This document shows, one piece after another, positions 2,280-35,573 of a DNA stretch of 45,985 bases. Positions within the stretch are counted from its first letter, which is position 1. Every line of letters begins with the position of its first letter. A program made the translations under genes and the position numbers. This DNA is from a virus. The notes beneath the pieces were generated by a model, which was not told the origin of the DNA, searched no databases, and saw only the letters and a list, made by a program, of their open reading frames with translations. The DNA lies in IMG/VR virus record IMGVR_UViG_3300030109_006257, positions 1 to 45,985 of that record; one strand, 5' to 3'.

Positions 2280-3535
2280 TATATTATTACCTTAGCTTCA
2301 CCTTCTAATAAGTATCTTGGACGACCACCATTATCGACACGTTGTATTCCTGCGTCAATACCAAAGTGATCAAATAAAGTTGCCTGCAAGTCAAGAGGAC
2401 CTACGGGATTTTCAATTGGATTATAAGACCTGTCCGCAGCACCAATAGTTCTACCTGATTGGTACTCCCCGCCAGCCATAAGCATAGGAGTGATAGCAGG
2501 CCAGTGGTCTCTTCCGGCATTTGCGTTGAATTTAGTTCTTCCAAATTCTCCCGTGACAACCAAGAGAACCTTTTCACTCATTCCCCTATCTTCTAAATCT
2601 TGCAAGAAACCTGCAAGAGCCTTGTCAAGAGGGGGAACTTTACCTTGCATTGCCTTCGAAATGTTGCTGTGCATATCCCAGCCACCATAATGAAGTGTTA
2701 TGAATCTTGTGCCATTCTCAGCTAGCCTTCTCGCAAGTATTAGTTGCTCCCCAATGTCCTTAGCCTTAGTAGAGCCATATAGAGCTTTAGTTGCTTCGCT
2801 TTCTTTTTCTATTGCGAATGCTTCTTTAGCAGAACCTAATATAACATCATAGGCTTGACCTTTGTAGAACTGTACCGACTCGGCTCCCTTGCTGGAAACT
2901 CTTGCCGCATCTAATCCTCTGAGCAAGTCTTTTCTTGTTGAGAATCTGTCAAGCTCAACTCTTGGTGTGAGATTGTCTTTATTGGACGGATCAAATGGTT
3001 TAAATGCTCCACCCAACCAAGCACCCTCATCACCTTCAATTTTACCTTGCTTAACATATGTAGGTACTCCATTGTTTGAATTATTAGCTCCATATATAGC
3101 AGAGACTATAGAGCCAAAAGAGGGGTATTTAGCCATTGATGTGGTACTTCTCTCTGGGTTGTAGTGGCCAGTCATCATAAAATGAGTGCCTTGCCTATGA
3201 GAAGAGTCCTTATGACTAAAGGAATTAACCACATTCAACTTAGAGGTATGCTTTGCAAGCTCTACCCAGTCGGCCCCTAGTGTGATATTTGTTTTTGGAT
3301 CATGTATGGCCCCATTCACTGGCTGCCATTCTGAAGGCACAGTATCGTTTGGAGCATGAAAAGTTTCAAATTGAGTAGGCCCTCCTCCTAACCAAACCCA
3401 AACTACAGTTTTATCTTTGTAGCTTGTGAAATCTTGTGAGCCTATGGCATAATCTGACAATCCTATAGCTGACATTCCGGCCCCGATAGAGCCGATTCTT
3501 AAAAAATTCCTTCTATCGAAAATGAAGTCTAACAT
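2279..3535 (-). CDS. DUF1501 family twin-arginine secreted protein
   Basis: A full-length 418-residue DUF1501 protein. The N-terminus (DRRNFLRIGSIGAGMSAIGL) is a twin-arginine signal. The body has the strand VVWVWLGGGPTQFETF, the block HRQGTHFMMTGHY, the His/Asp cluster HYGGWDMHSN, then TGEFGRT and GRDHWP. These match the alkaline-phosphatase/sulfatase-like core of the family. Its length matches bacterial members, so it appears intact. It precedes nothing obviously metabolic: upstream is nrdB after 12 bases, downstream is the coupled lysine-rich gene. A cell-envelope role is possible, but the substrate is unknown. The twin-arginine start and family composition suggest acquisition from, or adaptation to, a PVC-group host. 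Confidence 0.88.
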   Translation of the reverse strand: MLDFIFDRRNFLRIGSIGAGMSAIGLSDYAIGSQDFTSYKDKTVVWVWLGGGPTQFETFHAPNDTVPSEWQPVNGAIHDPKTNITLGADWVELAKHTSKLNVVNSFSHKDSSHRQGTHFMMTGHYNPERSTTSMAKYPSFGSIVSAIYGANNSNNGVPTYVKQGKIEGDEGAWLGGAFKPFDPSNKDNLTPRVELDRFSTRKDLLRGLDAARVSSKGAESVQFYKGQAYDVILGSAKEAFAIEKESEATKALYGSTKAKDIGEQLILARRLAENGTRFITLHYGGWDMHSNISKAMQGKVPPLDKALAGFLQDLEDRGMSEKVLLVVTGEFGRTKFNANAGRDHWPAITPMLMAGGEYQSGRTIGAADRSYNPIENPVGPLDLQATLFDHFGIDAGIQRVDNGGRPRYLLEGEAKVII

Positions 3536-9842: not shown

Positions 9843-10523
9843 TTATCTAAGACTCTTAACTATAGACTCGATGGTTTCAAAACCTTCTTCACCCAGTATT
9901 CCATCGCAAAATCCAAAGAACTTTGCTTCGTCTGGACTTATCCACCAGTCTTCTTTATCTTTCAACTGTTTCTTTATGAAGCGTAATATCTTACCTTCTT
10001 CTTGAAGATTGAACCTTTCGCTTCGTGATTTCATAGATTTTACTATAATATTATAGAACTTATCCAGCGCTATTTGTTCTTCTTTATATGCTGAAGATAT
10101 CTGTTTATACGTGCCCGATATGCACGTTGTGCCTTCGTGTACGAGCCATTCGCAGTTTGGGAGAGAGATGCACACCCCTTTATTTAGAGCTGCCTGAGCT
10201 GTGATTACGCCCATAGAAGCGCAAATCCCATTACATACAAATACAAAATCACATTTACTAGAAAGGATGGCATCATATATGCCCATGCCAGCATACCAGT
10301 CTCCACCAATTGTAAATTGATGCACCACTATTGGGTCGGAGTTTATTGACTCAAGAAGTCTTAGATTGGCTATAAAACGTTCGTAAGTAGTGTGGTTTAT
10401 TGAAGAGTCTTCGGAAGAAGAGGAAGATTTTAAAAATATCTCTCTTGTTTCTGTAATGATTCCATAGTCATGAACTATACTAGAATCAATAGAATCTCCA
10501 TTAGCCTTCTTGATCTTGCTCAT
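9843..10523 (-). CDS. ClpP-like serine protease
   Basis: A 226-residue ClpP/crotonase-fold protein. The oxyanion loop is GGDW (73-76), the nucleophile is Ser103 in CNGICASMGV, the His is H129 in EWLVHEGT, and the acid is Asp192 in EDWWISPDEAKFFGFCDG. The three residues appear in the right order and spacing for a ClpP triad. Phage ClpP-like proteins commonly process head or scaffold proteins or act on host factors; the target here is unknown. The N-terminus overlaps the 10501-10980 gene by 23 bases. Confidence 0.85.
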   Translation of the reverse strand: MSKIKKANGDSIDSSIVHDYGIITETREIFLKSSSSSEDSSINHTTYERFIANLRLLESINSDPIVVHQFTIGGDWYAGMGIYDAILSSKCDFVFVCNGICASMGVITAQAALNKGVCISLPNCEWLVHEGTTCISGTYKQISSAYKEEQIALDKFYNIIVKSMKSRSERFNLQEEGKILRFIKKQLKDKEDWWISPDEAKFFGFCDGILGEEGFETIESIVKSLR

Positions 10524-14664: not shown

Positions 14665-15573
14665 TTATTTATTCTTTAGGGAAAGTACCACATTAGCTAT
14701 GCTTACGTTATCGTAGCCTAGACAGTGTAGTTCATTTACTACTTCACTAATTTCTTGTTGACTAAATGACTCTTGAATGAGAGAGGCTTTTTCTCTGAAT
14801 TTTTCGGGGCCTTCTATAACGATACCTTGTTTTATCGCTTTCTTCTTACCTTCGGGGCCAGTATAACATTTACCTTGGTCTCCCCACTTCCATCCGTTGT
14901 TGTTGTTGTCTGAGCATTTTTTAAGCGGCATAATGACTTCCTTTACAATTGGATTTTTTATTAAATCTTTCCAGACAAAATCTGCAAGTTTTGCACCAGC
15001 AGTATTGTCGCTTTTGTAGTGAGCCCCCTGAAGCATCCTAGCATGACCTACCTGATAAGCTAGATCACTAAAAGATTGTTTGTGTTCTGGGTAAAAGTAT
15101 GATAAGACATTATATACAAAATAACCGTAAGCAGTGTGTCCAGATGGATATGCCGGAGTTCTTGCTGTGGAAGTGTTTATAACACTTACTGGGATATCTA
15201 ATGCTCCCGATAGCTGAAAAGGTCTTGCTCTTTTATATTTCCACTTTAGAGCGTAAACTATAGGCTCTAAGGAGTCTGTGTATAGACCTTCTATTATTTT
15301 CTCTGGGAATGTTAGATCATTCTTATTTAGATATTCAATAAAGATGTCTTCTGGAGCTCCGTCAACAGAAAAAACAAGATCTCGATCCTTGTCAGAAAGA
15401 GATCTCGTTAATTTAGATAGCTCTCTTAGCTCTCTTCTTGTTTGAGAACTAGAATTTTTGGGAGGATCACTTAATATATTCTCCCATCCAGCACTAATAT
15501 ATTTTGGGCCTTTAGATATTTTTTCTACATTCTCTTCTTTTGGACTGCCAAAATAGTCTATTTCGTCTATCAT
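14665..15573 (-). CDS. PAP2-type acid phosphatase with phage C-terminal module
   Basis: The 302-residue protein has the vanadium-haloperoxidase/PAP2 signature in order: KYKRARPF (K-x-x-x-RP, near 112-119), PAYPSGHTAYG, and the SR-like block GHARMLQGAHYKSD with the catalytic His. PAP2 enzymes remove phosphate from lipids or small phosphoesters. Residues about 220-250 (CSDNNNNGWKWGDQGKCYTG then PEGKKKAIKQG) form a module I recognise from phage virion or protease proteins, which is unusual on a phosphatase. No membrane spans are seen, so it is a soluble type. The start overlaps the stop of a 27-codon gene as ATGA. Confidence 0.8.
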   Translation of the reverse strand: MIDEIDYFGSPKEENVEKISKGPKYISAGWENILSDPPKNSSSQTRRELRELSKLTRSLSDKDRDLVFSVDGAPEDIFIEYLNKNDLTFPEKIIEGLYTDSLEPIVYALKWKYKRARPFQLSGALDIPVSVINTSTARTPAYPSGHTAYGYFVYNVLSYFYPEHKQSFSDLAYQVGHARMLQGAHYKSDNTAGAKLADFVWKDLIKNPIVKEVIMPLKKCSDNNNNGWKWGDQGKCYTGPEGKKKAIKQGIVIEGPEKFREKASLIQESFSQQEISEVVNELHCLGYDNVSIANVVLSLKNK

Positions 15574-15653
15574 TTATCTTCTTTTTTAGCTTTAGCTGGT
15601 TTTTTTGGAGCTGGTTTAGGTGCTGCACTTGCAGCTTTAGGGTCATGTGGCAT
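15570..15653 (-). CDS. Tiny Ala/Lys/Pro-rich peptide (27 aa)
   Basis: A 27-codon frame with a strong ribosome site (AAAGGAG), starting MPHDPKAASAAPKPAPKKPA. Its stop overlaps the ATG of the phosphatase gene, which argues that it is translated. The sequence resembles histone H1-like basic tails, but it is too short for a family call. It could be a leader peptide for the phosphatase. Confidence 0.5.
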   Translation of the reverse strand: MPHDPKAASAAPKPAPKKPAKAKKEDK

Positions 15654-15706
15654 AGTATAATCTCCTTTTAAAAAGTTCCACATAATTGAATACACCGAAA
15701 ATTAAG

Positions 15707-16047
15707 TGGAGGTGGGCGGAATTGAACCGCCGTCCTGTATTATCTCCATAGCTATATCTACATTGTTAGATTGTTGTGATCGCACAACAAACAAAGCTAT
15801 CCGATTATCGGAGTCAGATGGTATACCATCATTTCACTAATAATTCAAGCAGTGAAAGCTCTATCTAGGAACGACCTAGCCCGTTACCGACTTTGGTTTG
15901 CAGGGCGCGGAAAACCCCTGCCGCTAAGCGGCTAGTGAGAAGTTCTTTTCTGCACTTAAAAAGTTTAGTCAATTTTTATAGTAGCCCTTCGACCAACTAC
16001 TCAATGCAATAGTTATTTCAACAACCAGTCGAACCCAATTCACCCCC
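15707..16047 (-). ncRNA. ssrA: tmRNA (transfer-messenger RNA), tag AEKNFSLAA
   Basis: The 5' end (GGGGGTGAATTGGGTTCGAC, from 16047) and the 3' end pair as a tRNA-Ala-like acceptor, GGGGGTG with CACCTCC, preceded by the T-arm GGCGGTTCAATTCCGCC. The discriminator is A at 15707, and CCA is not encoded. At 15953-15924 an open frame reads GCA GAA AAG AAC TTC TCA CTA GCC GCT TAG, which encodes the tag AEKNFSLAA. The resume codon is GCA, preceded by TAAGT as in other tmRNAs. Length is 341 bases. tmRNA rescues stalled ribosomes and marks unfinished proteins for proteolysis. Phage copies occur but are uncommon. No smpB gene is seen here, so host SmpB would be needed. Its 5' end lies one base from the stop of the 16049-16222 gene. 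Confidence 0.95.
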
Positions 16048-16048
16048 T

Positions 16049-16222
16049 TTATACATTACACTTATCGCTCCCGCATCCTTTATTTGAAGGATTTTGTAGC
16101 TCTTGCTCACATTCCTCTAAGTGTCTTATCATTCCCTGAAGCATTTCGTTTTGCTGCTCAATCTGCTGTCTAAGATTAGCTATATATTGCTCAGCCATTT
16201 GTTTTACTGTTATATTTGCCAT
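16049..16222 (-). CDS. Small coiled-coil protein (57 aa)
   Basis: A 57-codon frame between the tmRNA and the nucleotidyltransferase gene. It begins MANITVKQMAEQYIANLRQQ, continues in a Gln/Glu-rich helix (IEQQNEMLQGMIRHLEECEQ) and ends with a Cys-containing tail (KGCGSDKCNV). A short coiled coil with a possible metal or disulfide tail is likely. Its stop ends one base before the tmRNA, so the two probably share a transcript. The function is unknown. Confidence 0.6.
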   Translation of the reverse strand: MANITVKQMAEQYIANLRQQIEQQNEMLQGMIRHLEECEQELQNPSNKGCGSDKCNV

Positions 16223-16225
16223 ATT

Positions 16226-16693
16226 TTATAAACCTCTTATTTTGGTTTTAGTAAATTTAGAAGAATCCTTAATTAAATTACTTGAAGACTGAGTTTTTCC
16301 TCCTCCTACGTTGTATTGCAACTCTATACCTAGCCTTCCACATACTTCTTCTTCTGAGCTGACGCTACCCTTTTTCCTATCTCCACCATTACCAAATATC
16401 ATACCATCAAAATCATCTGAATCTTTATATAGGTAATACATGCTGATTAAAGAATTACATACGGTAGAGTCTTCATCATAAGATAAGTAGGCGTAATCCA
16501 CATCTTTTATTTTTGATACTATTCTAGCACGCTCTTTTTCATTCATAAAAGGAACAGAGCCCTTAAGCTCAACTTGGCTGTCATTATTAACAATCACTAT
16601 TAGATAGTCTCCAAGCTCTTTCGCAGACTCAATGTAATCAAGATGCCCACTGTGAATAGGATTGAAGTACCCAGATATAACCACATATTTCAT
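16226..16693 (-). CDS. Cytidylyltransferase-like nucleotidyltransferase
   Basis: A 155-residue protein of the HxGH nucleotidyltransferase superfamily. The core motif is GYFNPIHSGHLDYIESAKEL near the N-terminus. A second sugar- or nucleotide-binding block is MIFGNGGDRKKGS. It resembles the second domain of HldE (heptose-1-phosphate nucleotidyltransferase) and glycerol-3-phosphate cytidylyltransferases. With the adjacent HAD phosphatase and heptose-kinase-like gene, activation of a heptose or similar phosphate is the best guess. The start overlaps the HAD gene by 4 bases (ATGA). Confidence 0.75.
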   Translation of the reverse strand: MKYVVISGYFNPIHSGHLDYIESAKELGDYLIVIVNNDSQVELKGSVPFMNEKERARIVSKIKDVDYAYLSYDEDSTVCNSLISMYYLYKDSDDFDGMIFGNGGDRKKGSVSSEEEVCGRLGIELQYNVGGGKTQSSSNLIKDSSKFTKTKIRGL

Positions 16694-17034
16694 AGACTTA
16701 CTTCTCCTAACCCCTCGTCTCTTTTTATATTGATTGCAAACGCGGTCTCTTCTCCGCTAGGTCTCTTGTCATTTATTATAATTCTTTGCCCTTTGGAAAT
16801 GCCCATGATCAAAGTATCATAAGGTATTCCAAGTCTAGAGAGATCTTCTTTAGTCTTTTCTCTTAAGCTTTCTCTTCTAGCTGTCGTCAAAATTATTTTA
16901 TACTCTTTAGAGCACCATTCGTTCATCTTTTCTCTTACATTTGGTAATAAATTAGCGGGCTTTTGAGCTATGTCGCTGAATGTGCCCTGATGTTTGAAGA
17001 GAGTTCCGTCAATATCTACAAAAAGTGTTTTCAT
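16690..17034 (-). CDS. Small HAD-family phosphatase
   Basis: A 114-residue cap-less HAD protein. The nucleophile motif is DIDGTLFKH (Asp7, Asp9), motif II is ILTTARR, and the acid cluster is IIINDKRP. Such short HADs hydrolyse sugar phosphates. Between a GHMP kinase (17039-18007) and a nucleotidyltransferase it fits the phosphatase step of a heptose-7-phosphate to heptose-1-phosphate route (GmhB role), but this is inference from order. A polynucleotide phosphatase-type function cannot be excluded. Confidence 0.75.
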   Translation of the reverse strand: MKTLFVDIDGTLFKHQGTFSDIAQKPANLLPNVREKMNEWCSKEYKIILTTARRESLREKTKEDLSRLGIPYDTLIMGISKGQRIIINDKRPSGEETAFAINIKRDEGLGEVSL

Positions 17035-17038
17035 TTTA

Positions 17039-18007
17039 TTACCTATTTATTATCTGAGATCCTTGTTCATCTATACTAAAATCAATGTAATTATTCTTAT
17101 ATTTATCTTTTATAAGCTGTTTGCAATTTTGATCTTTCATTATTCCGAATATAAAGCCTGCTCTTCCTGCTCCTAGAAGCTTGCCTCCGATCATCCCATT
17201 ATTTTTTAAATCGGCATACAAGCTCTCAACATCACTTGAAGATATTGATTCTGATAATTTTTTCTTAGTGTTCCAACTTTTTTCAAGAAGTAGCCCAATA
17301 GAATTAATGTCCGAATCTAAAAAGCAATTATAGGCCTCTCGGGCAGTTTGTAAGATAGACTTTTTTTTATGTACATTAGATTCCCTACCTATGCTCTTTG
17401 CAACTTCGAAGGATCTTCTTGTCTTACCGGTATAGACAAGGACACTTCTAGAAATAAATTCCTCTTTGAATTCCTGAGTTACTGGCATAGGCTTTACCTC
17501 GAATTCTCCTTTTTGATTTATATCTATAGAATTCATTCCACCATAAGATGCCCATATTTGGTCCTGTATGCCTCCCGGCTCGTCGAGGTGAACCCTCTCT
17601 ATCTCTATGGCTATTTCTGCCAGCTCTTTTCTAGAACATTGCTTATCATTGAGAGCACAGATAGAATTTAAAAGACCTACTATAAAAGAAGAAGAAGACC
17701 CTGTACCAGTCTGTGAAGGCAGATCGCTAAAATGATTAAGCTCTAAACCAAAATCAATATCACAATAGTCAACAACCCCTTTTATGGCACTGTGCTCTAT
17801 ATCTTTATTAGAATTAAGTATCTCAGTTTTTGAATAGGTTAGCCTTGTTTTATATGGGAGTATTAAAGGCGTCTTCCTCGTAGATATGTATGTGTATTTG
17901 TTTAGGCAAAATCCAATTAAGAACGAACCATGCTTGGAGTAGAATGATTTATAATCGGTAGAACCTCCAAACAGAGAGACTCTAAAGGGAGTTTTTGATA
18001 TTATCAT
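17039..18007 (-). CDS. hddA: GHMP kinase, D-glycero-D-manno-heptose-7-phosphate kinase-like
   Basis: A 322-residue GHMP kinase. The N-terminal motif ISKTPFRVSLFGGSTDY is close to HddA, the ATP loop is QTGTGSSSSF (residues 99-108), and the C-terminal motif is GGKLLGAGRAGFIFG. HddA phosphorylates heptose 7-phosphate at C1 on the way to GDP-heptose in surface polysaccharides. A HAD phosphatase and a nucleotidyltransferase follow immediately. The start overlaps the preceding SDR stop as TAATG. No isomerase (GmhA) is seen, so the substrate may come from the host. Confidence 0.8.
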   Translation of the reverse strand: MIISKTPFRVSLFGGSTDYKSFYSKHGSFLIGFCLNKYTYISTRKTPLILPYKTRLTYSKTEILNSNKDIEHSAIKGVVDYCDIDFGLELNHFSDLPSQTGTGSSSSFIVGLLNSICALNDKQCSRKELAEIAIEIERVHLDEPGGIQDQIWASYGGMNSIDINQKGEFEVKPMPVTQEFKEEFISRSVLVYTGKTRRSFEVAKSIGRESNVHKKKSILQTAREAYNCFLDSDINSIGLLLEKSWNTKKKLSESISSSDVESLYADLKNNGMIGGKLLGAGRAGFIFGIMKDQNCKQLIKDKYKNNYIDFSIDEQGSQIINR

Positions 18008-18951
18008 TAGTAATTTTTACATCTCTCAATATCTGCTTGATCCATCAAGTCATAAAACCTATCCATTTCTTTTATACCATACTCAAGATCATACTTGCAA
18101 TTAAAGCCTAGGTTATATAGTTTCTGACTACTTACAATATAATCTCTTTTGTCTGGATCTGTTCTTGAATCATCTACTGAATAGTCAGAGCCAATGATTT
18201 CACATATCTCTTCTACCAAAGAAAGCTTGGTCATATTAATAGAGTCATTACCTAAATTGAAAACATTCCCAACCATTGATGGAAATCTTTTCATTGCAAA
18301 AATGAATGCTCTGCAAATATCTTTTACATGAATATAATTTCTTCTAAAATGCCCATCAAATACTGTTAAGTGCTTCTCTTCTCTAGCTACCTTTGTTAGA
18401 TTGTTTACTAACAAGTCAGTCCTAGGTCTTGGTGAAACACCGAATACAGTAGCTAGTCTAAAGACAACGGTGTTGTAATGACTTCTTAATAAATGATCTT
18501 CTGCCCCTTGCTTAGTATTAGCATACAATGATATTGGGTTTGAAGGAGTTTCTTCTGTACAGATATCTTCTCCTGTTGATCCATACCCTGAGTTTGTATT
18601 AGGATAAATGATCACCTGACTTTCTTGTGTAAGTTCGGTCAATTTCTTGAACCAATTTAAATTTGTCTCAGTAGTAATCTCTGGATATCTATCACAAAGA
18701 GGAGCCCCCACCAAGGCTGCTAATGGAATTATGTAATCAGCTTGCTTGATTGCTTCTACCAAATTTTCAGACCATTCATTCACATCTTCACGAAAAAAAT
18801 CCACGTTGTCTTTTAGTAAAGTCTCAGCGACCAAAGTACCTTGGTTATAGAATAGGTTATCAAATGCCGATACTTTATCTGCGAACTTACTTACTTCTCT
18901 AACTAAGCTTGAGCCTAAATAGCCAGCGGCTCCGGTAATTAAAACATTCAT
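18007..18951 (-). CDS. SDR nucleotide-sugar epimerase/dehydratase
   Basis: A 314-residue extended SDR. It has the NAD(P) site GAAGYLG (7-13), the acidic end of strand 2 (AFDN), a Ser/Thr stretch (NTNSGYGSTGE) and the catalytic YANTKQ (Y-x-x-x-K). The middle block NYIHVKDICRAFIFAM is typical of sugar epimerases. It lies between the DegT-type and GHMP-kinase genes with TAATG overlaps on both sides. The sugar is unknown; epimerisation or dehydration of an NDP-hexose is inferred. Confidence 0.88.
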   Translation of the reverse strand: MNVLITGAAGYLGSSLVREVSKFADKVSAFDNLFYNQGTLVAETLLKDNVDFFREDVNEWSENLVEAIKQADYIIPLAALVGAPLCDRYPEITTETNLNWFKKLTELTQESQVIIYPNTNSGYGSTGEDICTEETPSNPISLYANTKQGAEDHLLRSHYNTVVFRLATVFGVSPRPRTDLLVNNLTKVAREEKHLTVFDGHFRRNYIHVKDICRAFIFAMKRFPSMVGNVFNLGNDSINMTKLSLVEEICEIIGSDYSVDDSRTDPDKRDYIVSSQKLYNLGFNCKYDLEYGIKEMDRFYDLMDQADIERCKNY

Positions 18952-20081
18952 TATCTACAGGCCTCCAAGGCTTCTTTGATAGTTAATTCAATTCTTTGGA
19001 TATCTTCCTCTGATAGATGCTGATGACACCCAATGTGGATACCATTGTCTCCAACCCATTCAGCTTCAGGAAAATCTCCTAATGAGTATCCCATATCTGC
19101 AAAAGCCCTATGTTGAGTTGGTATGCATCCAAAGTTTCTCTTGTGATGGATATTATATTTGTCAAAGACTTGTTCTACTAGTTTTATTTTTCCTTCTTCT
19201 TTGCAGGTTATGCTAAATCCATGAGGACAGTTTTTGTTATTGACATCTTCTTCTGAGAAATATGCGACATCTTCATATCCTTCGGCGGCAGCTCGCATAC
19301 GCTTCATTGTTGCATGTCTTGTGTTAAATGTCTCCCAAAATACTCCGACCGCCTCTAGTCCAATACTTGCTTCAAGATCATTCATCTTTGAATTATATCC
19401 AACTCTTTGATGGTCAAAATAAATTGAATTGAAGGGTCTTCCGTGAGATCGACACGACGCTAATACGTCTGCCAAATGATCATCATTTGCAGATACCATT
19501 CCTCCTTCACCACAACAGACTAGATGAGCAATGTAATAACTATACACAGACATGTCGCCCCAATGGCCAATATATTTACCTTTGTATGTTGCTCCGTGTG
19601 CTTCGCAGGCATCTTCAATGACAATTAAGTTATATTCTTCTGCAAGTTCACAGATAGCATCCATTTCTGCCGGACGACCCATTGTATGAACAGGCATGAT
19701 TGCGACAGTCTTAGGGGTAATAGCTTCTTCTATTTTTGTTTCATCAATATTAAGAGTCTCTTTTTTAACATCAACAAATACTGGTGTAAGTCCAGCGGCT
19801 CGAACAGCATTAGATGTAGCAATAAAAGATAACGCTGGTACAATGACTTCATCCCCGCGCTTTGCGTCTGCAATATCGTACAAAGCAAGGCAAGATGCTA
19901 TCACTGCATCAGTGCCAGAGCTCATAGCGACACTTCTTTTATAGTTAAAGATTTTAGACCATTCTTTTTCAAGCTGCTTAACTTTTGGCCCACCAGATGC
20001 CCAGTTAGTATCACATACATGCATCAGATTTTTTCTGGCAACTTCTCCAATAACAAGCTCTCCAAACTCTATTCTTTTCAT
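18951..20081 (-). CDS. DegT-family PLP protein with His in place of the lysine (3-dehydratase-like)
   Basis: A 376-residue DegT/DnrJ/EryC1/StrS protein. The PLP ring contact is Asp157 (IEDACEAHGA). In ordinary aminotransferases the PLP lysine lies in a block like SFxxxK-GEGG; here the block is SYYIAHLVCCGEGG and residue 186 is His. The same swap is known in ColD and in E1/RfbH 3-dehydratases, which use PLP or PMP to remove the 3-hydroxyl of NDP-4-keto sugars. I therefore call it dehydratase-like, not an aminotransferase. It overlaps the SDR (18007-18951) and the thiamine enzyme (20078-20608), pointing to a 3-deoxy or branched sugar route. Confidence 0.8.
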   Translation of the reverse strand: MKRIEFGELVIGEVARKNLMHVCDTNWASGGPKVKQLEKEWSKIFNYKRSVAMSSGTDAVIASCLALYDIADAKRGDEVIVPALSFIATSNAVRAAGLTPVFVDVKKETLNIDETKIEEAITPKTVAIMPVHTMGRPAEMDAICELAEEYNLIVIEDACEAHGATYKGKYIGHWGDMSVYSYYIAHLVCCGEGGMVSANDDHLADVLASCRSHGRPFNSIYFDHQRVGYNSKMNDLEASIGLEAVGVFWETFNTRHATMKRMRAAAEGYEDVAYFSEEDVNNKNCPHGFSITCKEEGKIKLVEQVFDKYNIHHKRNFGCIPTQHRAFADMGYSLGDFPEAEWVGDNGIHIGCHQHLSEEDIQRIELTIKEALEACR

Positions 20082-20608
20082 CTATATAAATCTCCATGTT
20101 CTACAATCAATGTGGAAACGCCGTCTTCTCTGTCCAATGCTTTCTTGTACTCTCCAAATATCTTTTGAGGATATAGCAACTCAACAACATTTATATTATC
20201 GCAAGATGATTTGAAAGCGCTTGTGAAGTTCTGTTTATGTTGATGTCCGGGGTCTAATGGGTACTGTGATCCGACAACTGCTTTCATGATTACTTTTGGC
20301 TTACTCTGGCCGCAGGACATCGCATCCCACTTATCTAGATGATTGACTATCTGATTCATTGCAAGAATTATAAAGTTCATTCTGGGATACAGAGAGACTG
20401 GTATATACCCTTCAAGAGCTAGACCTAGGGCAAATCCGGCCTGAAACTCTTCGGCTACTGGAAGTTCCAGCTTCTTACTGTCATCAAAGGCTTTTACTTG
20501 ATGAGTCAGTGCAGTCCCCTTATACTCTACAGCCTGTCCTATAAAGATAGTCTTGTCATGTGCATTCAGGTATTCCATACCCTTATTTACTTCATCTATA
20601 TACTTCAT
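20078..20608 (-). CDS. Thiamine-diphosphate enzyme, beta-type (Pyr) subunit, minimal
   Basis: A 176-residue protein with the fold of the pyrimidine-binding part of E1-beta/transketolase. The ThDP-activating Glu is in LPVAEEFQAGFALGLALEG (Glu53 by spacing). Later landmarks are VSLYPRMNFIILAMNQI and PKVIMKAVVGS. Ordinary E1-beta subunits are about 325 residues and carry an extra C-terminal domain; that is missing here. It pairs with the alpha-type gene at 20611-21228, 2 bases upstream, and overlaps the DegT gene as ATGA. The substrate is unknown; a role in sugar building is inferred from the neighbourhood. Confidence 0.75.
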   Translation of the reverse strand: MKYIDEVNKGMEYLNAHDKTIFIGQAVEYKGTALTHQVKAFDDSKKLELPVAEEFQAGFALGLALEGYIPVSLYPRMNFIILAMNQIVNHLDKWDAMSCGQSKPKVIMKAVVGSQYPLDPGHQHKQNFTSAFKSSCDNINVVELLYPQKIFGEYKKALDREDGVSTLIVEHGDLYR

Positions 20609-20610
20609 AT

Positions 20611-21228
20611 TTAAAACTCCACAAAAACGCCGGTTCCAGAATGGGGGTAAGACATTTTATAATTATAATATATAATCTTTACATTCTGTGCATTATATTT
20701 ACATATTAAATCTAACAGAGAATTAACTAAATCTTCTGTCTTGATCCCACAAGTTGGTTCTGTCTCAGTGCCTACAGATTTTCCATTGTCTTCTATTACC
20801 CAAGTTATCGGCAAGTCATGCCCTATAGAATATCTTATTGACTCATTGGCAATACCTGTCTGAAAACTCATGTCTCCTAGAAAGCAATATACTCTTCTGT
20901 CTTTATCTTCTTTTTTTAGTGACCAAGCAGTACCTGTCGCTATAGGAGCGATACCTCCAACTATTGCGGAACTATAAAAATTATACTCCGGATAATGAAG
21001 AGTTATAGATCTTCCTTCTAAGATATCTTGCTTGACTATTTCTGAAGGAACACCTTTCAACAAGGAATGTAGATGGCTAGCCCAAGTAGAAAACACATAG
21101 TCATCAGTGTTTACTTGTTCAAATATTTTTGTCAGCACCTCTTCATTTCCATCTCTCAAATGGACTGGAGCTTTTATTATGCCACTTTCGTACAGTTCCG
21201 CTATTTCATTTTCAAATTCTTTAAGCAT
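20611..21228 (-). CDS. Thiamine-diphosphate enzyme, alpha-type (PP) subunit, minimal
   Basis: A 205-residue protein matching the diphosphate-binding half of E1-alpha/transketolase. The ThDP motif is visible as GDMSFQTG (G118-D119) followed 30 residues later by EDNGKSVGT (N148). Preceding landmarks are ALxxGGIAPIATGTA-like (IVGGIAPIATGTAW). E1-alpha proteins are usually about 330 residues, so this is a reduced version. With 20078-20608 it would make a two-subunit ThDP enzyme that could move a two- or three-carbon ketol or acyl unit. Such pairs also occur in O-antigen gene clusters. Confidence 0.75.
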   Translation of the reverse strand: MLKEFENEIAELYESGIIKAPVHLRDGNEEVLTKIFEQVNTDDYVFSTWASHLHSLLKGVPSEIVKQDILEGRSITLHYPEYNFYSSAIVGGIAPIATGTAWSLKKEDKDRRVYCFLGDMSFQTGIANESIRYSIGHDLPITWVIEDNGKSVGTETEPTCGIKTEDLVNSLLDLICKYNAQNVKIIYYNYKMSYPHSGTGVFVEF

Positions 21229-22468
21229 TTACTAATTCCTCTTCAAAAGAACTTGTCCCATTATCTAAAATATTTGTAAACTGATTGAAGAATGAATGCT
21301 CCTTAATCCAACTTACTTGTTTAGATAGAACTTTATTAATTGTATCTTCGTCTTTAGTAACTTTGTCATAAACTGTTCTTATGGTTTCTATATCATCGTA
21401 TTCATAAATTGGGAATACGTCTTTGTAAAATATTTTATTCCAATAGAAATCATCATATATTAAAATAGACCCCATCAGAGGGGCTAAAAAGTCTTTTACA
21501 CCCTTCATACATCTTTGTAGATGTGTCTTTAGTTTATGTTCTTGATAGAAGGATGGCATGACAATTTTTGTCTCACGGCATTTGGGTCTTGTACAATTAG
21601 GATTACCACACCTGTGCCAATAGCCCGATTTACGCATGTCATCATCTCCGGCCCAAGCGGAGGAGGTGTTGCCCAAATGTGTCTTAATAGAAAGGTAATC
21701 AGATAAAGTTTCTATGACATTTTTATTTGCTAGGTGTTGCGTGTCTGACGCTCCTAATAGGGTATTGTCAAACGTTCTGTTCAGATATCTTTTTAATCTC
21801 GATCTATATGTATTACCACTTCTAAATGTCATGAAGGCACCTATTTCTGTAGACCTCTCAATATACTGATTAGAAGTCTTCGAATTTTGGCTAATTCTTT
21901 CCTCGCAGATCTCCAACATTTTTTTACATGGGGTAGATATGTAAAATTGTGCATTGACACCCAGAGATTCTCTTAACATTTTCACTTTTCTAGGCTCATT
22001 CGTCATATATAAATCCGCTAACTCTATATTTTCTATACAGAACTCATGAGGAAACATATTGCTTAGATAATAGAAATCGTCCCATGCAAGACAAGCAATT
22101 CTACACTCCGGATCTAGTAGCTTTAAGTCTAATAGTGTAACATAGCCTGCATATAAAACCCAAGGCTCAATGATATAGAGTACTCTCCCGAGCTTACTTA
22201 TACGAGAATCAAATTCTTCATAAAGATTAAATCCTGCATGTAGTCTTACAGAGCTATATTGTATGTCATATTTTTTACAAACTTCTGGCATGTCTAGATA
22301 AAAGCTCATCTCAGAGTTTAGTGTGTATCTGCCCTGCTGCTGAGCGTTTACGCCATGAAAGCTATTGTCTTGCAAAATAGATAAGTTATCCCTAACTGGA
22401 TCTACGTTATCGGATATAACTCTAAAACAGACTATTGTATCAATGTCTTCTAGTAAATGTTCTTTCAT
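21221..22468 (-). CDS. Probable GT-B-type glycosyltransferase-like protein with Cys cluster
   Basis: A 415-residue protein with a late-domain block resembling GT-B donor sites (KGVKDFLAPLMGSILIYDDF, then VFPIYEYDDIETI), preceded by an unusual Cys-rich segment (CGNPNCTRPKC, about residues 288-298) that could bind zinc. The N-terminal part (IDTIVCFRVISD) is less clear. No strong nucleotide-sugar motif is visible, so function is inferred from the sugar locus. It overlaps the RmlC-like gene (4 bases) and the ThDP alpha gene (8 bases). Confidence 0.5.
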   Translation of the reverse strand: MKEHLLEDIDTIVCFRVISDNVDPVRDNLSILQDNSFHGVNAQQQGRYTLNSEMSFYLDMPEVCKKYDIQYSSVRLHAGFNLYEEFDSRISKLGRVLYIIEPWVLYAGYVTLLDLKLLDPECRIACLAWDDFYYLSNMFPHEFCIENIELADLYMTNEPRKVKMLRESLGVNAQFYISTPCKKMLEICEERISQNSKTSNQYIERSTEIGAFMTFRSGNTYRSRLKRYLNRTFDNTLLGASDTQHLANKNVIETLSDYLSIKTHLGNTSSAWAGDDDMRKSGYWHRCGNPNCTRPKCRETKIVMPSFYQEHKLKTHLQRCMKGVKDFLAPLMGSILIYDDFYWNKIFYKDVFPIYEYDDIETIRTVYDKVTKDEDTINKVLSKQVSWIKEHSFFNQFTNILDNGTSSFEEELVNA

Positions 22469-22947
22469 ATATCTAATTCTTTTAGGCTCTTTGCTTCTTT
22501 GTCTCTAACTGATAGAATTGGGCACTTAGTTTCCCAACTGGCATTTATTGTCTCGTCTTTATAGCTCACAGTCCATTGTTCTTCTGGACCAGAATACGGC
22601 TCACTCCACTTATAGTACAAAACACACTCCTCGCTTAAGCATTCATGAGCGTTTAGATAATAAGGAGGTGCTAGTACCTGCAATTTGTTATCATCACTTA
22701 ATAACAATTCTTTTTTCATAGACTTTTTCATGTCCCAAAAGACTAACTTTAGAGATCCATATATACAAGTGAAGAGCTTCCAAGTCTTACTGTCTCCGTG
22801 AAATCCTCTGATAGTTCCTTTAGTAGACCTAGAAAATCTATCTTCAACAAATTTTATATCATATTCGCCATTCTTGTAGCATGGATATACCTCTCCTCGG
22901 CAATCTTTATAGGTGATTAGATTCTTTGCATATAAGGTCATTGGCAA
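22465..22947 (-). CDS. RmlC-like sugar epimerase (cupin)
   Basis: A 160-residue cupin related to dTDP-4-dehydrorhamnose 3,5-epimerase. The block DRFSRSTKGTIRGFHGD contains the conserved RG-x-H (His catalytic base), followed by KLFTCIYGSLKLVFWD. The C-terminal part is diverged from canonical RmlC. It probably epimerises an NDP-4-keto sugar made by a dehydratase such as the RmlB-like protein at 29096. It overlaps its neighbours by 4 and 10 bases. Confidence 0.75.
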   Translation of the reverse strand: MPMTLYAKNLITYKDCRGEVYPCYKNGEYDIKFVEDRFSRSTKGTIRGFHGDSKTWKLFTCIYGSLKLVFWDMKKSMKKELLLSDDNKLQVLAPPYYLNAHECLSEECVLYYKWSEPYSGPEEQWTVSYKDETINASWETKCPILSVRDKEAKSLKELDI

Positions 22948-23909
22948 GCGCTGCCCAAGTAATTATTTTCATACCAATCGCATGTCTTTTTAAGACCAGA
23001 CTCTAAAGATGTCTTAGGAGCCCAGCCTAGCTTGTCTTTAGCTTTAGTACAGTCAAGTATTACCGTTGTTGGAATGTCTGGTTTGGTTGTATCAAACTTC
23101 ACATTCAAATCTTTGTCTTGTAAATTCATAATTGTTTCGGCTAGCATAAGTATAGAGAATGCCTGACCAGCACCGCAATTGAACAGCTCATACTTAGACT
23201 CTTGATTGTTAATACAACTATCAATAAACTCAATAAGATCATCAATATAGATGACATCTCTAGATGCTTTGCCCGTTCCCCATATTTCAAACTCATCTTC
23301 AGCGTTTGTAACTTTGTTCACAAAGGCCGGAACTACATGGCATTTGTCTAAATCAAATTTATCATATGGGCCATAAACATTTGAATGTCTAAAAGCTGTG
23401 AATTTTGTATTGCCTATTCTAGAGTAGAAGTCACACATCTTTTCACTGAAGACTTTCATATTTCCTACGCCAAAATAGTTATGATATATTTCTTCATCGG
23501 CGCTCCAGCTGTCTTCAGACTGTGGTTCGTCTTTTGGCTGATACATAACTGTACAGCTAGGAAATAGCAGATGTCCTACATCATTGAGAGTAGCCTCTCT
23601 AAAAATCCAAGAGTTCATGACTGCATTGTCTGTTACATGTATATATGGTCTTTCTACTACATCTTTAGAGCCAGTTGTTGTAGCTGCAGCCTGCAACACT
23701 ACATCATAGTGCCGACTTTCGAAAAGGTTCTTTACCTCTCTTTCAATCCTTAAATCTGCGACTACATATTCTACGCCTTCTATCTTTCCATAATCAGGCT
23801 CAGAAGAACTGAATAAAACTGCGGTAATATCATAAGAGTCTTTGAAATATTCTAAAGCATTTCTTCCTATGAAGCCATTGGCTCCGCATACTAGCATTGT
23901 CTTTTTCAT
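22938..23909 (-). CDS. SDR epimerase/reductase (GDP-fucose synthase-like), atypical YxxxK
   Basis: A 323-residue extended SDR with GANGFIGRNAL as NAD(P) site and VADLR as the acidic turn. The later block RDVIYIDDLIEFIDSC and GWAPKTSLESGLKKT at the C-terminus match sugar epimerases or GDP-fucose synthase. The catalytic Tyr-Lys is not at the normal spacing: the region reads NYFGVGNMKVFSEKM, where Val stands four residues before the Lys and the nearest Tyr is seven before. A shifted motif or altered chemistry is possible. The next SDR (24609-25607) shows a similar departure. Confidence 0.75.
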   Translation of the reverse strand: MKKTMLVCGANGFIGRNALEYFKDSYDITAVLFSSSEPDYGKIEGVEYVVADLRIEREVKNLFESRHYDVVLQAAATTTGSKDVVERPYIHVTDNAVMNSWIFREATLNDVGHLLFPSCTVMYQPKDEPQSEDSWSADEEIYHNYFGVGNMKVFSEKMCDFYSRIGNTKFTAFRHSNVYGPYDKFDLDKCHVVPAFVNKVTNAEDEFEIWGTGKASRDVIYIDDLIEFIDSCINNQESKYELFNCGAGQAFSILMLAETIMNLQDKDLNVKFDTTKPDIPTTVILDCTKAKDKLGWAPKTSLESGLKKTCDWYENNYLGSACQ

Positions 23910-23911
23910 TT

Positions 23912-24607
23912 TTAAACCTTTATAAAGTAAGCTATACCGACCTCATCTGAGTACGATATATATTCCCAGCTATAATCCTGTTCTTTTTCTTTTATTACTT
24001 GAGGAGTTCCGTACTGATCTCCTTGGAAGTTTGCATCATGCAGTGCTACTATTCCCCCTTTACGAACGAGGGGAGAATAATTTTCCAAATCTTTTTTCAC
24101 ATACTCATAGGTGTGATTTCCGTCTATAAATACACAGTCAAACGGACCAAATTTGGAGGCTTCCTCTATTACCTCTTTGGATGCTGAATCCCCACATATC
24201 AAAGTCTCTTTTTTTGAATTGATTTCATCTGCATATCTTTGTATGTGTAAGTCATCATACTCAATCGTGCAGATACTATCCATTAATAAACTAAGAACAA
24301 AATGAGTAGATGCGAAGTGCCCCAATCCTATCTGCAATATATTTTTACATTCGTTATCAACAAGAAGATTTAGGAAATGATATATTTCATCATGAACCTG
24401 CTGTATGACTTGTGGGTTGCTATTTACTATATCTACATTTGGGTCTATATACAGTTCAGAATATCCTGATTCTTGAGATAGTATTTGCCTCGCTCTAGAC
24501 TCCATAAGCATCATAGACACGTCTACTTTTGAACTTTTTGTAGGGAACGCTCCGCTATCCAACAAATTATCAAAAAAGTCATTGATATAATTTTTCTCTA
24601 TCTTCAT
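23912..24607 (-). CDS. SAM-dependent methyltransferase
   Basis: A 231-residue class I methyltransferase. The SAM loop is ILQIGLGHFAS (motif I), the acidic strand-2 end is CTIEYDD, and later blocks are FDCVFIDGNHTYEYVKKDL and GGIVALHDANF, typical of the Methyltransf_24 type. It probably methylates a sugar or its carrier in this locus. It lies between two SDR genes with spacings of 1-2 bases. Confidence 0.85.
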   Translation of the reverse strand: MKIEKNYINDFFDNLLDSGAFPTKSSKVDVSMMLMESRARQILSQESGYSELYIDPNVDIVNSNPQVIQQVHDEIYHFLNLLVDNECKNILQIGLGHFASTHFVLSLLMDSICTIEYDDLHIQRYADEINSKKETLICGDSASKEVIEEASKFGPFDCVFIDGNHTYEYVKKDLENYSPLVRKGGIVALHDANFQGDQYGTPQVIKEKEQDYSWEYISYSDEVGIAYFIKV

Positions 24608-24608
24608 T

Positions 24609-25607
24609 TTATACGCCTATTAAATTGGTATAGTCTGCTTTTAAGAATGGGTCATGCCTGCCCTCATAAGGATTGTTTGCAATGAACCAATCAAATGTTT
24701 CTTTTAATCCCTCTTCTAAAGAAACTGTTGACTCAAATCCATATCCTCTCAGTCTCGATACATCTGCAACTCTAAGGGAGTCTCCCTTTGGTTTCGACAT
24801 ATCATTTGTTATTTCTAAATCCTTACCAGAAACTTTAACTAAAGTCTCTATTAGTTCTTTTACGGTAACGCACTTCCCGTTTCCGACATTTACTGGCTCA
24901 GTAATTTTGTTTTCTACAAGGAACATTGCAGCTCTCGCTATGTCTCTTGCATGGATTATATCTCTTCCGGCAGAACCATCTCCCCAGATTTCAACGCTAT
25001 CTCTAGCTTCGACAACTTTTCTAATTAAAGAAGGAACAAGAGTAGACGTTGCAAGGTTGAAGTTATCATACTTACCATAGATATTCACTGGCTTCATTAT
25101 AGAGATATTCTGCTCTCCATACTGCTGTTGATATGCATCTATCTGAACTTCTCCCATTCGCTTTGCCCATCCAGCAAACCAGTCGTTTGGAGAAGGGTTT
25201 TTATCCCATAATTCACTTTCCCTAAAAATCTCAGACTGTCCGTAAGTTCCAACTGTGCTAGTGTAGATGCCTCCTCCCATATCAGAGGTATACATAGCTG
25301 CTATCATGCTTGTATTTAATTGTAGTATGCTTGTAAAGAAAGTGTATTGCTTGGTCTTCGTGATTACAGGAGAGCCCTTGATTCCAGCAATGTGGAAGAC
25401 AAAGTCTTTTCCTTCACATGCTTCCATGGCATTTTTGAGAACACGCAAGTCTGTGTTTACATACTCTACATCCCACTCTTTATCAAAATTGTTGTTGTCT
25501 AATGATGCCGAAGTTACATTTGCCCCCTCTTTGACAAGAAGCTCTACCAGTTCTCGACCCACTAGGCCTGTTCCGCCGGTCACTAAAATATTTTTTCCGT
25601 TATACAT
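24609..25607 (-). CDS. SDR epimerase/dehydratase, atypical catalytic motif
   Basis: A 332-residue extended SDR. The NAD(P) site is GGTGLVGRELV and the strand-5 block is TSTVGTYGQSE. The catalytic region reads PNDWFAGWAKRMGE, where the expected Tyr four residues before Lys is Ala. The mid-region RDIIHARDIARAAMFLVENK and GYGFESTVSLEEGLKET match nucleotide-sugar epimerases. It pairs with the similar SDR at 22938. The reaction is uncertain; a reductase or epimerase role is inferred. Confidence 0.75.
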   Translation of the reverse strand: MYNGKNILVTGGTGLVGRELVELLVKEGANVTSASLDNNNFDKEWDVEYVNTDLRVLKNAMEACEGKDFVFHIAGIKGSPVITKTKQYTFFTSILQLNTSMIAAMYTSDMGGGIYTSTVGTYGQSEIFRESELWDKNPSPNDWFAGWAKRMGEVQIDAYQQQYGEQNISIMKPVNIYGKYDNFNLATSTLVPSLIRKVVEARDSVEIWGDGSAGRDIIHARDIARAAMFLVENKITEPVNVGNGKCVTVKELIETLVKVSGKDLEITNDMSKPKGDSLRVADVSRLRGYGFESTVSLEEGLKETFDWFIANNPYEGRHDPFLKADYTNLIGV

Positions 25608-26559
25608 GCTTGTTACTCCAAGTTATTAGAGAGTCGTCTTGACTTTCAATATATTTAAAAATTTTCTCTACCGTGTAGTTTTTGCTTTTCTCATAAGCTC
25701 TTTTAATTATACCCTCGTATTTTTGAAAGTTATCCCTTATATCTTTAATTATATCCTGCAACTCATCAAAAGATTCAAAATATATAAATTCTTTTTCAGG
25801 GACGTAGAAATCCTCAACTAAGTTCCAAGGATCTTTCTTAACTATCATTAAAGACTTGGAAGAAGTAATCTCATGTGTTCTAACTTTGAATTGAGGCATT
25901 ATACCATTTGCAAATTCATCAAAAACATCAAACTCCTCGCCGTTGTAGACAGATGAAGGGCTCATATAGATCATATTAAAGCTTAGTGAAGATCTACATT
26001 TACTAAGTTCTACTAGCTTTTCTTCAGAAGGCAGATTTATGTGAGTGCATTTATCAAACTCGTATGGATGTCTCATCCATGTGTTCAGTTGTGACGTTAA
26101 GAATTTATAATCAAACTTGGATATGACTTCTATCGCAGATATATGGTCTTGTCCATGGATAGATCCCATCCAAGAGCAGTCTGCATCATAATTTCCGAAT
26201 TGTTTCACGGAATAATTTGTAAACGGATAAGGAATGTATTTGAATTTCTCATATCCAAAATGTTCATTCATAAATTTACAAGTGAATGGACACACGCAGT
26301 AGACCTCTGTAAAGAAATCATAGTGATCAAAATGAAAGTAGTCTTTTCTGCTAGTGAATTCACATGGACTCCAAAGAGCAAGCAGGCACTTCCTATCGAA
26401 ACTTTGATAAGGAACTTTTATATCATTGTGATATATCCATGCACAACCATTCATCAGGACAGAATCAAATGAGTCGTCTCCTAGCTTGTCCAGCGTTTCA
26501 TGTATATATGTAACTACTCCCCATGTGGCATCGTCCCTCCAATTACCAACAACTCTCAT
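25600..26559 (-). CDS. Glycosyltransferase, CgeB-like GT-B
   Basis: A 319-residue protein. The C-terminal half has the GT-B look: VRTHEITSSKSLMIVKKDPW, then FIYFESFDELQDIIKDI and a run of helices (KYEGIIKRAYEKSKNYTVEK). This is the pattern of CgeB-like family 1 glycosyltransferases. Earlier landmarks are KYIPYPF and SWMGSIHG. The donor and acceptor are unknown. It overlaps the next gene by 4 bases (ATGA). Confidence 0.65.
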   Translation of the reverse strand: MRVVGNWRDDATWGVVTYIHETLDKLGDDSFDSVLMNGCAWIYHNDIKVPYQSFDRKCLLALWSPCEFTSRKDYFHFDHYDFFTEVYCVCPFTCKFMNEHFGYEKFKYIPYPFTNYSVKQFGNYDADCSWMGSIHGQDHISAIEVISKFDYKFLTSQLNTWMRHPYEFDKCTHINLPSEEKLVELSKCRSSLSFNMIYMSPSSVYNGEEFDVFDEFANGIMPQFKVRTHEITSSKSLMIVKKDPWNLVEDFYVPEKEFIYFESFDELQDIIKDIRDNFQKYEGIIKRAYEKSKNYTVEKIFKYIESQDDSLITWSNKHV

Positions 26560-27308
26560 GCGTTAGTTCCTCTAATGTTCATATCTATACTATATTCTTC
26601 AAATAAGTCCATTAGTTCTGAAAAGTACTCTAGGATATTCCACTTGCCCTTTACAACGGCTGTGGCTATATGCGGAAAGACGCTTGAGTCATAATGGAAT
26701 ATTCCTCGCTTCTTCTCTGAGTCATGGTATTGCCATCCTTTTGTAATTCCTATCCTTCGGCATATCTCTGAACCTCCCGGCTCCTGTTGCATTCTACCAT
26801 TAGTAGATGGAGACTCTTTAAATATTTTTTTGAAGTCCTTAGTCCTCCACACACTAGCTTGCTGTGCAAAAAAATTACCACTGGCTGGGTCAATTACAAA
26901 TAACTTTTCGTAACTCTGGTCTCTTGAGACATCTTCTGGGCCTTTGGTAAGTTTAACAAAGCTGTAGTCCGAATTGTCCAGAGCATTTATTATATAGTTT
27001 AGTTTTTCTTTATTCACGAAATCAAAAAGAACATAGTCTTCACTTGTGTATAGAATGTACTCTTCTTGTATTTTTTCCAAGCAAGATAATAATTGATTTC
27101 TATATGTGTCATTGTCATCATAAAGAAGTTTTATAAAAGAGTCTGGAATTATCCCGACAGTATGGTTTTGCTCTTCAAACTCATCATCAACACATACATA
27201 CTTTGTTAAATCATTAGAGGGAAAAAATGTGTCTAGCCTTCCGAAATATGGTGCCCAGACATCAGAGTATCTCGAATTAGTATCTACCAGCAAAGCTAAT
27301 GAGCTCAT
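26556..27308 (-). CDS. Possible GT-A-like glycosyltransferase or sugar-related protein
   Basis: A 250-residue protein whose central block EEYILYTSEDYVLFDFV resembles the acidic donor site of some GT-A enzymes, and whose C-terminal block GRMQQEPGGSEICRRIG recurs in glycosyltransferases of phage sugar loci. No DxD motif is certain. The function rests mainly on position between a DegT-like gene and a GT-B gene. Confidence 0.45.
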   Translation of the reverse strand: MSSLALLVDTNSRYSDVWAPYFGRLDTFFPSNDLTKYVCVDDEFEEQNHTVGIIPDSFIKLLYDDNDTYRNQLLSCLEKIQEEYILYTSEDYVLFDFVNKEKLNYIINALDNSDYSFVKLTKGPEDVSRDQSYEKLFVIDPASGNFFAQQASVWRTKDFKKIFKESPSTNGRMQQEPGGSEICRRIGITKGWQYHDSEKKRGIFHYDSSVFPHIATAVVKGKWNILEYFSELMDLFEEYSIDMNIRGTNA

Positions 27309-27910
27309 TGAAATATCCTAAACTCAGTAAGGTCTCTGTACGGTGGATTCTCTATTTGATCTTCTGCATTCTGAGGATAATCACTTAGAAGAATTAGACC
27401 TCGTGCGGCCTGTTCTGGGGTCATATACATATTCCATCCTTGCTCGGCTATAACATCTTCATGATAGCAAATATTCTCTGCTCTACCTTCGTACCTCATT
27501 CTTTTTATATGCTCAACAGCTTCTTTGCTGTCAGTAAGTATCATTCCTCCTTTGCCTATTTTCAAAGGTTTTTTATGATGAAAAGACAGACACATTAAAG
27601 AACCGGGAATATACATATTAGAAGTCAATCTTTTTGCTGAGTCATATATTGGAAAGGGTTTAATCTGATAGATGCCTTTCCAGTCAACATCTGCAAACTT
27701 CAACTTACCTCCAGCCTGCATAATAGACTGCGGCACAGATAGATATGTTCTCTTTGGGATTGTTACGGACTGTCCTTTTACGTTAAAGTGCTTACAGGCC
27801 AAAAAGATTGCATTGGTACAGCTATTCGTTGCAACCGCGTATGGTGCTCCCGTATAGTGCGCTATCTCTTCCTCAAACCATTTCACAATTTCAAAGGGGT
27901 TCCTAAGCAT
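27305..27910 (-). CDS. DegT-family aminotransferase, short form (lysine kept)
   Basis: I start it at ATG 27910 (MLRNPFEIVKWFEEEIAHYT), which matches the usual DegT N-terminus; a start at 27958 would overlap the previous gene by 56 bases. The 201-residue protein has the SCTNAIFLACKHF block, and the PLP Lys region CLSFHHKKPLKIGKGGM with Lys kept. It ends at about half the normal length (usual about 370), so much of the small domain is missing. It may be a reduced enzyme or a degraded copy. It overlaps the GNAT gene, suggesting amino-sugar formation then acylation. Confidence 0.65.
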   Translation of the reverse strand: MLRNPFEIVKWFEEEIAHYTGAPYAVATNSCTNAIFLACKHFNVKGQSVTIPKRTYLSVPQSIMQAGGKLKFADVDWKGIYQIKPFPIYDSAKRLTSNMYIPGSLMCLSFHHKKPLKIGKGGMILTDSKEAVEHIKRMRYEGRAENICYHEDVIAEQGWNMYMTPEQAARGLILLSDYPQNAEDQIENPPYRDLTEFRIFQ

Positions 27911-28292
27911 CTTCTCTTTCCAATAGATAGTATTTCTTCTTAAATCCGCAAGACTCAAAAAGCCTTATGCTTGCCTCATTATCTAATTTTACTTTAGCAA
28001 ATGAGTTTGGTCTAAATCCCATAAGCTCATTTATCATAAATTTAGCTATGCCTTTTTTCTGATGGTCTGAATGTGTTGCCACTCTTATATCTTTATTTAT
28101 TTCACCAACCCATCCTACAGGCTCTCCATCTTCTAGTGCTATGTAGTAGTCTTGGCAGTGGCTCTCCATATATTTGTAGTGGTCTTTTACCTGTATAGTC
28201 TCTTGTTCTATGAAACCTTCTCGCAAAGAATTTCTAAGCTCAAGAACAAAGTCCCAATACTTTTTTTCGCATCTTACTAGCTCTAACCCCAT
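27903..28292 (-). CDS. GNAT-family acetyltransferase
   Basis: A 129-residue GNAT protein, starting at ATG 28292 after AGGAAG. The acetyl-CoA site block is THSDHQKKGIAKFMINELMG, with the later FAKVKLDNEASIRLFESCGF. It resembles sugar N-acetyltransferases of the RimJ/PseH type. Next to the DegT-type aminotransferase it would acetylate an amino sugar. It overlaps its neighbours by 8 and 10 bases. Confidence 0.8.
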   Translation of the reverse strand: MGLELVRCEKKYWDFVLELRNSLREGFIEQETIQVKDHYKYMESHCQDYYIALEDGEPVGWVGEINKDIRVATHSDHQKKGIAKFMINELMGFRPNSFAKVKLDNEASIRLFESCGFKKKYYLLEREDA

Positions 28293-29092: not shown

Positions 29093-29095
29093 AGA

Positions 29096-34427: not shown

Positions 34428-34440
34428 CTATCTACTCTCC

Positions 34441-35564: not shown

Positions 35565-35573
35565 GTAAAAACT

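Follow-up and report, generated by a model that had tools for sequence, protein, structure and literature searches.

A one-piece tmRNA gene in an uncultured marine phage lineage

The virus record IMGVR_UViG_3300030109_006257, a stretch of 45,985 bases that was analysed as a whole and is called the window in the following, raises the question of whether this phage encodes a complete tmRNA and what use it would make of it. tmRNA releases ribosomes that have become stuck and marks their incomplete protein with a tag for ClpXP-type proteolysis. The original prediction saw a phage-encoded tmRNA at positions 15707-16047 that might bolster ribosome rescue during takeover or be carried as a host-derived gene. 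Phage tmRNAs as such are already published (PMC4131195, PMC9004378, PMC7162821, PMC7474061). With the present locus, the tmRNA-carrying phages gain an uncultured marine lineage that, judged by its terminase, has no close relative in culture. The locus is worth keeping for this lineage, for its likely host, and because the 5' end of the tmRNA is repeatedly fused to the end of coding sequences.

The tmRNA gene and its structure

The complete tmRNA in the window is real. A cmscan search with the tmRNA model RF00023 gave 104.7 bits (E 5.2e-40), well above the gathering score of 47, and the match covers model positions 1-374 of 374 without being cut off. It spans 16047-15704, while the RNA proper extends from G1 at 16047 to the discriminator A at 15707, hence the predicted coordinates were right; the strand, absent from the prediction, is the minus strand. 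Together with the fold and the ends, the match defines a one-piece gene (ssrA) of 341 nt without encoded CCA, in which the 5' acceptor strand comes first and the 3' strand last, i.e. the order is not permuted. The minimum free energy of the RNA is -107.2 kcal/mol (z-score -3.69), and none of 100 shuffled sequences was as low. In a blastn search of the tmRNA region against phages only short matches appeared, the best with an E value of 0.01.

The tRNA-like ends can be read directly from the minus strand. The acceptor 5' strand GGGGGUG (16041-16047) pairs in all seven positions with the 3' strand CACCUCC, which is followed by the discriminator A (together 15707-15714), and the pairs include the AlaRS-type G3.U70 with G3 at 16045. 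The T arm GGCGG-UUCAAUU-CCGCC (15715-15731) is paired in five of five positions. Directly after the discriminator stands CUU, and CCA, as had been noted before, is not encoded, so it would have to be attached afterwards for the RNA to work; the tRNA-Arg and tRNA-Glu genes of the window also lack it and show A followed by CTA.

The mRNA-like part holds the tag frame at 15924-15953, running from the resume codon GCA (15953-15951) to the stop UAG (15926-15924), and its codons GCA GAA AAG AAC UUC UCA CUA GCC GCU UAG give the nine-residue tag AEKNFSLAA with its hydrophobic end. The same tag was called by ARAGORN at default settings in the relatives L092, L094 and L103. Upstream of the resume codon lies the pseudoknot PK1 with 5 + 8 pairs (15965-16001, minus strand), the tag stop is held in the H5 hairpin GCCGC-UUA-GCGGC (15920-15932, minus strand), and PK2 follows at 15884-15917 (minus strand), its stem 1 counted for covariation and its stem 2 recognized by eye in the alignment. 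Resume codon, tag and stop were thus read as predicted, and the frame sits where a tmRNA should have it, after PK1 and ending in H5, with covariation in PK1, H5 and PK2 stem 1.

One gene finder disagreed. ARAGORN made no call of the window tmRNA at default settings, nor at two relaxed thresholds on the locus L001, yet it called 13 of the 17 phage tmRNA loci described below at default. Hence, the identification is based on Infernal and comparative evidence and not on two gene finders. The missing call would fit a degenerate, non-functional copy in this particular phage; this explanation is, however, highly improbable, because the window copy has lost none of the pairs counted in the acceptor, T arm, PK1, H5 and PK2 stem 1 and is matched by RF00023 over the full length of the model.

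Related phage tmRNAs and their covariation

Relatives were gathered by the tag pattern, which gave five viral contigs, and by the large subunit of the window ribonucleotide reductase, which gave 80 loci. Out of the records behind those loci, 50 were searched for RF00023, chosen mainly by length with shorter ones left out. Sixteen of them exceeded the cut-off; G001, G002 and G005 among these came through the tag pattern alone, and setting them aside leaves 13 of 47. A match at E<=0.001 was present in 23 of the 50. The tmRNA gene may be dispensable in the lineage, given that 34 of the 50 records, many of which are fragments, had no match over the cut-off.

The 17 tmRNAs including that of the window fall into two sets. 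Clade A (13 sequences) comprises RNAs of about 340-352 nt, including three bases after the discriminator, without CCA and with nine-residue tags: AEKNFSLAA in six, VEENFALAA in four (L095-L098, i.e. G011, G010, G025 and G015, with the resume codon GUA), AEPSFAIAA in two and AEHSFAIVA in one. The four members of clade B (L088-L091, i.e. G047, G031, G029 and G038, with the tmRNA from 1501) are 413-427 nt long and encode CCA. Their apparent tags of 30-35 residues, for example ANSNIDMAPSVAEADEILARFGFQEAALAA, are mutually similar with in-frame length differences; ARAGORN also reads 30 residues in one of them and places the tag start further downstream in the other three. Of the 17 phage tmRNAs, 16 have tags that end in AA; the tag of G006 ends in VA instead. 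The T loop reads UGC instead of UUC in L101 (G006) and L102 (G005), with all T-arm pairs intact.

All 17 tmRNAs keep seven of seven acceptor pairs, G3.U70, the discriminator A and five of five T-arm pairs, and the acceptor pairs 4, 5, 6 and 7 are changed on both sides in some of them. For the inner helices, covariation was counted in the 11 distinct sequences among the 13 of clade A, two identical copies being dropped, over the 22 pairs of PK1, H5 and PK2 stem 1. Of the 242 cells, 96.7% are paired in the named structure, and 10 pairs show changes of both partners; controls with the partners moved by 1-3 columns gave 20.7-48.9% and 0-2 double-changed pairs, a comparison that favours the named structure since it was drawn from the same sequences. 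The 10 double-changed pairs also stand against a mean of 4.9 after shuffling, which related rows exceed easily, and by the measure of further pair types the result is less distinct, with 52 of 500 shuffles reaching its value. PK1 holds exact swaps from G-C to C-G and from A-U to G-C, and together with the double-changed pairs these are difficult to explain in another way. Since the tag and the helices are kept by compensatory changes, the tmRNA gene is under selection; it is neither decaying nor a stray fragment in this lineage.

Upstream genes and the proposed role

Long open reading frames adjoin the tmRNA on the same minus strand, where a search of 15450-16700 showed no sigma-70-like promoter. 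The nearest frame, a 57-aa ORF (16049-16222, minus strand), ends with UAA at 16051-16049, 1 nt before G1 of the tmRNA. A homologue lies at the same place in G006, where the preceding HAD and cytidylyltransferase genes also follow the same order, and PAP2 or SSB genes stand near the tmRNA in several other relatives. The gap between the upstream stop and G1 is similarly small elsewhere in clade A, with 0 nt in G001, 2 in G008, 5 in G006 and 6 in both G025 and G015. In G009, G010 and G011 the upstream stop is a UGA at tmRNA nucleotides 6-8; this UGA belongs to the tRNA-like 5' end, where a coding frame that enters the gene can therefore terminate. In G003 the stop seen in G001 is absent and the upstream frame enters the tmRNA by 30 nt. 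The same scan found no abutting or overlapping upstream ORF in G002, G004 and G005, and for clade B it gave gaps of 21, 38 and 41 nt in three records and no such ORF in the fourth. The coding sequences that overlap the tmRNA 5' end look genuine by comparison with window genes: one encodes a 303-aa protein resembling an epimerase of the window (31% over 313 aa), and the overlapping PAP2 proteins resemble the window PAP2 (42-43% over 203 aa).

The 5' end of model tmRNAs is matured at G1. If this also holds here, the epimerase or PAP2 mRNA of G009, G010 and G011 would lose its stop codon and become a nonstop mRNA. Packing against upstream stops therewith offers a clear prediction of nonstop mRNA, and it might even be that each tmRNA made creates its own nonstop substrate and tags the upstream protein for decay. 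The tmRNA would then form the tail of a coding transcript, and its excision would take away or crowd the stop of the upstream gene. Such a self-supplying loop, which if true would tie tmRNA supply to the shut-off of the upstream gene, is regarded as rather unlikely. Compact phage genomes pack their genes tightly anyway, hence the arrangement of tmRNA and stop may lack function. A comparable overlap is described for smpB-ssrA of Carsonella, in which the coding sequence upstream extends into ssrA, as in the phage lineage, and a nonstop mRNA is expected (PMC4131195). Carsonella is, however, a reduced endosymbiont whose overlapping gene is smpB, whereas here PAP2, epimerase and other genes of phages are concerned. 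New in comparison with Carsonella is that the overlap recurs with different upstream genes within one phage lineage.

tmRNA needs SmpB, and this part of the earlier expectation is known from the literature. The smpB gene was also sought, and SmpB (PF01668) was found in none of the 51 records, which are possibly all fragments, while the controls matched in 10 of 14 genomes. The phage tmRNA would therefore depend on the SmpB of the host.

We consider that a working one-piece tmRNA is probably expressed by the phage during infection, and bolstered ribosome rescue is the best-supported of the proposed functions. The RNA would be co-transcribed with the upstream genes, its 5' end would be cut in an RNase P-type reaction and its 3' end trimmed, and the host would provide the CCA-adding enzyme and the alanyl-tRNA synthetase that charges the RNA with alanine. 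Bound to host SmpB, it would enter ribosomes stalled on mRNA that is broken or lacks a stop codon and swap the template to its own tag frame, whereupon the ribosome would be released and the protein, tagged with (A)AEKNFSLAA, be delivered to host ClpXP-type proteases. The most likely benefit for the phage would be that ribosomes stay available at a time when the DNA and mRNA of the host are broken down and its own ssrA supply is no longer renewed. In the mycobacteriophage Wildcat, the tmRNA is described as the most highly expressed lytic gene (PMC7474061).

The opposite role has been considered as well, namely that the phage RNA acts as a decoy or inhibitor: by binding to SmpB or to stalled ribosomes it would block or modify trans-translation of the host, for example through a tag treated differently by the host proteases. 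In mycobacteriophage DS6A, the tmRNA consists of little beyond the tRNA-like domain, and a similar molecule inhibits tmRNA (PMC4131195); moreover, tags vary within the present lineage and include AEHSFAIVA. However, a decoy could do without the mRNA-like part, tag frame and stop, which are all kept with compensatory pairs, and the AA ending of nearly all tags speaks against it, too. Hence, a decoy appears unlikely.

Several known systems come close to this tmRNA. The Methylophilales phage Melnitz and pelagimyophages are marine phages with a tmRNA in an operon-like setting, for which a function has been proposed; however, their tmRNAs are two-piece and of the alphaproteobacterial type, whereas the present one is one-piece with a nine-residue tag (PMC9004378). 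According to the same source, tmRNA occurs in 402 of 18,146 phages and marine phages make up only 2.5% of the one-piece cases (PMC9004378). The mycobacteriophages Bxz1, Wildcat and others as well as Bacillus phage G also encode tmRNA, which is the feature they share with the lineage here, but their hosts are different (PMC4131195, PMC7474061). Translation-rescue genes are also reported for huge phages, some of which encode SmpB, unlike the 51 records here, in which none was found (PMC7162821).

Host group and genome content

From 12 phage tmRNAs an RNA model (R1) was built, which among the sampled phyla scored best in Planctomycetota with 132.5 bits (256 of 294 genomes matched), where the top genome had been picked by its tag pattern and the best score without it was 113.7 bits. 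In a sampling that left out Proteobacteria, Bacteroidota, Verrucomicrobiota and Cyanobacteria, the other best scores were 95.9 bits in a single Caldisericaceae genome, 89.2 bits in the phylum of a Clostridium (92 of 101 genomes matched), 85.7 bits in a single Cloacimonadota genome and 80.8 bits in the phylum of an Acidimicrobiia genome (114 of 149). These scores are suggestive of a planctomycete host. The top-scoring tmRNA, of Planctomycetaceae SP176 (132.5 bits), resembles the phage RNA in its nine-residue tag (AEGNFSLAA) and in lacking CCA (A-CTA). Ends of the type A-CTT/A-CTA are shared between the phage and planctomycete tmRNAs, and some planctomycete tags also begin with Val (VNNNFAMAA), as VEENFALAA does in the phages; both features speak for this phylum.

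In the tree, the phage RNAs make up a monophyletic clade (99/96) that is deeply divergent internally and stands outside the sampled planctomycete tmRNAs, none of the phage RNAs being nested among the 30 planctomycete ones. Clade A is grouped, although weakly (86/39), with a tmRNA of Cloacimonadota, and clade B is placed elsewhere. A host gene captured recently and carried as passenger cargo with no benefit to the phage would agree with the best scores of the phage-built model in planctomycetes among the sampled phyla and with the use of host tmRNA genes as prophage integration sites (PMC9004378). It is, however, very unlikely, because deep vertical inheritance with kept structure, as indicated by the monophyletic and internally divergent clade, argues against recent capture and the tmRNA lies in varied neighbourhoods beside phage genes.

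The original prediction had also considered that the tag may point to the host group, which holds only weakly. Among the matches listed, 80 bacterial loci with the loosened tag pattern carried AEDNFALAA (64), AEENFALAA (11), AEDNFAFAA (3), AENNFALAA (1) and AEGNFSLAA (1, a planctomycete), and none of them AEKNFSLAA. Naming the host from the tag alone was rejected, because among these matches the pattern is common to many phyla. The tags AEKNFSLAA, AEGNFSLAA and VEENFALAA were not found in the literature searched, nor did a literature search on planctomycete phages yield anything on such tmRNAs.

Protein-coding genes were considered as well. The window encodes a DUF1501 protein (PF07394, 4e-70; 2279-3535, minus strand) with a homologue in G005 (47.9% over 424 aa). 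DUF1501 is frequent in planctomycetes. G005 further encodes a SASA esterase (L301:5870-6784, minus strand) that carries two dockerin stretches and matches the planctomycete extracellular export signal PF07595 Planc_extracel with 27.9 bits (cut-off 25.5), a signal present in only one of the 51 records. The G005 terminase matched in none of 392 Planctomycetota genomes at E<=1e-10, in a search that had no positive control. Taken together, we lean towards Planctomycetota as the host, which if true would provide a rare view of a phage of this phylum.

That the gene is phage-encoded, as predicted, is borne out by the virus record and by G005, which carries the same tag and has matches to a head protease, terminase, portal and major head protein; its terminase shows about 24-31% identity to cultured phages among the matches listed. 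A Clp-protease-family protein of the window (9843-10523, minus strand) was considered as the tag-degrading enzyme and rejected, because its best PHROG is a head maturation protease (phrog_94, 1.7e-15) and it stays far below curated ClpP cut-offs. Its homologue in G005 (44.8% identity) directly precedes the terminase, portal and major head protein matches. Members of this family occur in 9 of the 17 records with and 11 of the 34 without tmRNA, which shows little. The T4-like gp23 capsid (PF07068) was found in none of the 51 records, the profile being silent in the controls, too.

The window also encodes both subunits of a class I ribonucleotide reductase, a dUTPase and an SSB. A protein with sigma-70 region 2 (PF04542, 4e-12; 42771-43517) represents a possible phage sigma factor, and a RuvB-type Holliday junction helicase (39096-40022) and a Peptidase M19 dipeptidase (37756-39003; G005 homologue 43.9%) are likewise encoded on the minus strand. 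Finally, sugar-nucleotide and glycan genes follow one another in a long series over 16226-36029 on the minus strand, including a GHMP kinase, a DegT aminotransferase, a UDP-GlcNAc 2-epimerase, a split E1/transketolase pair and a sulfotransferase.
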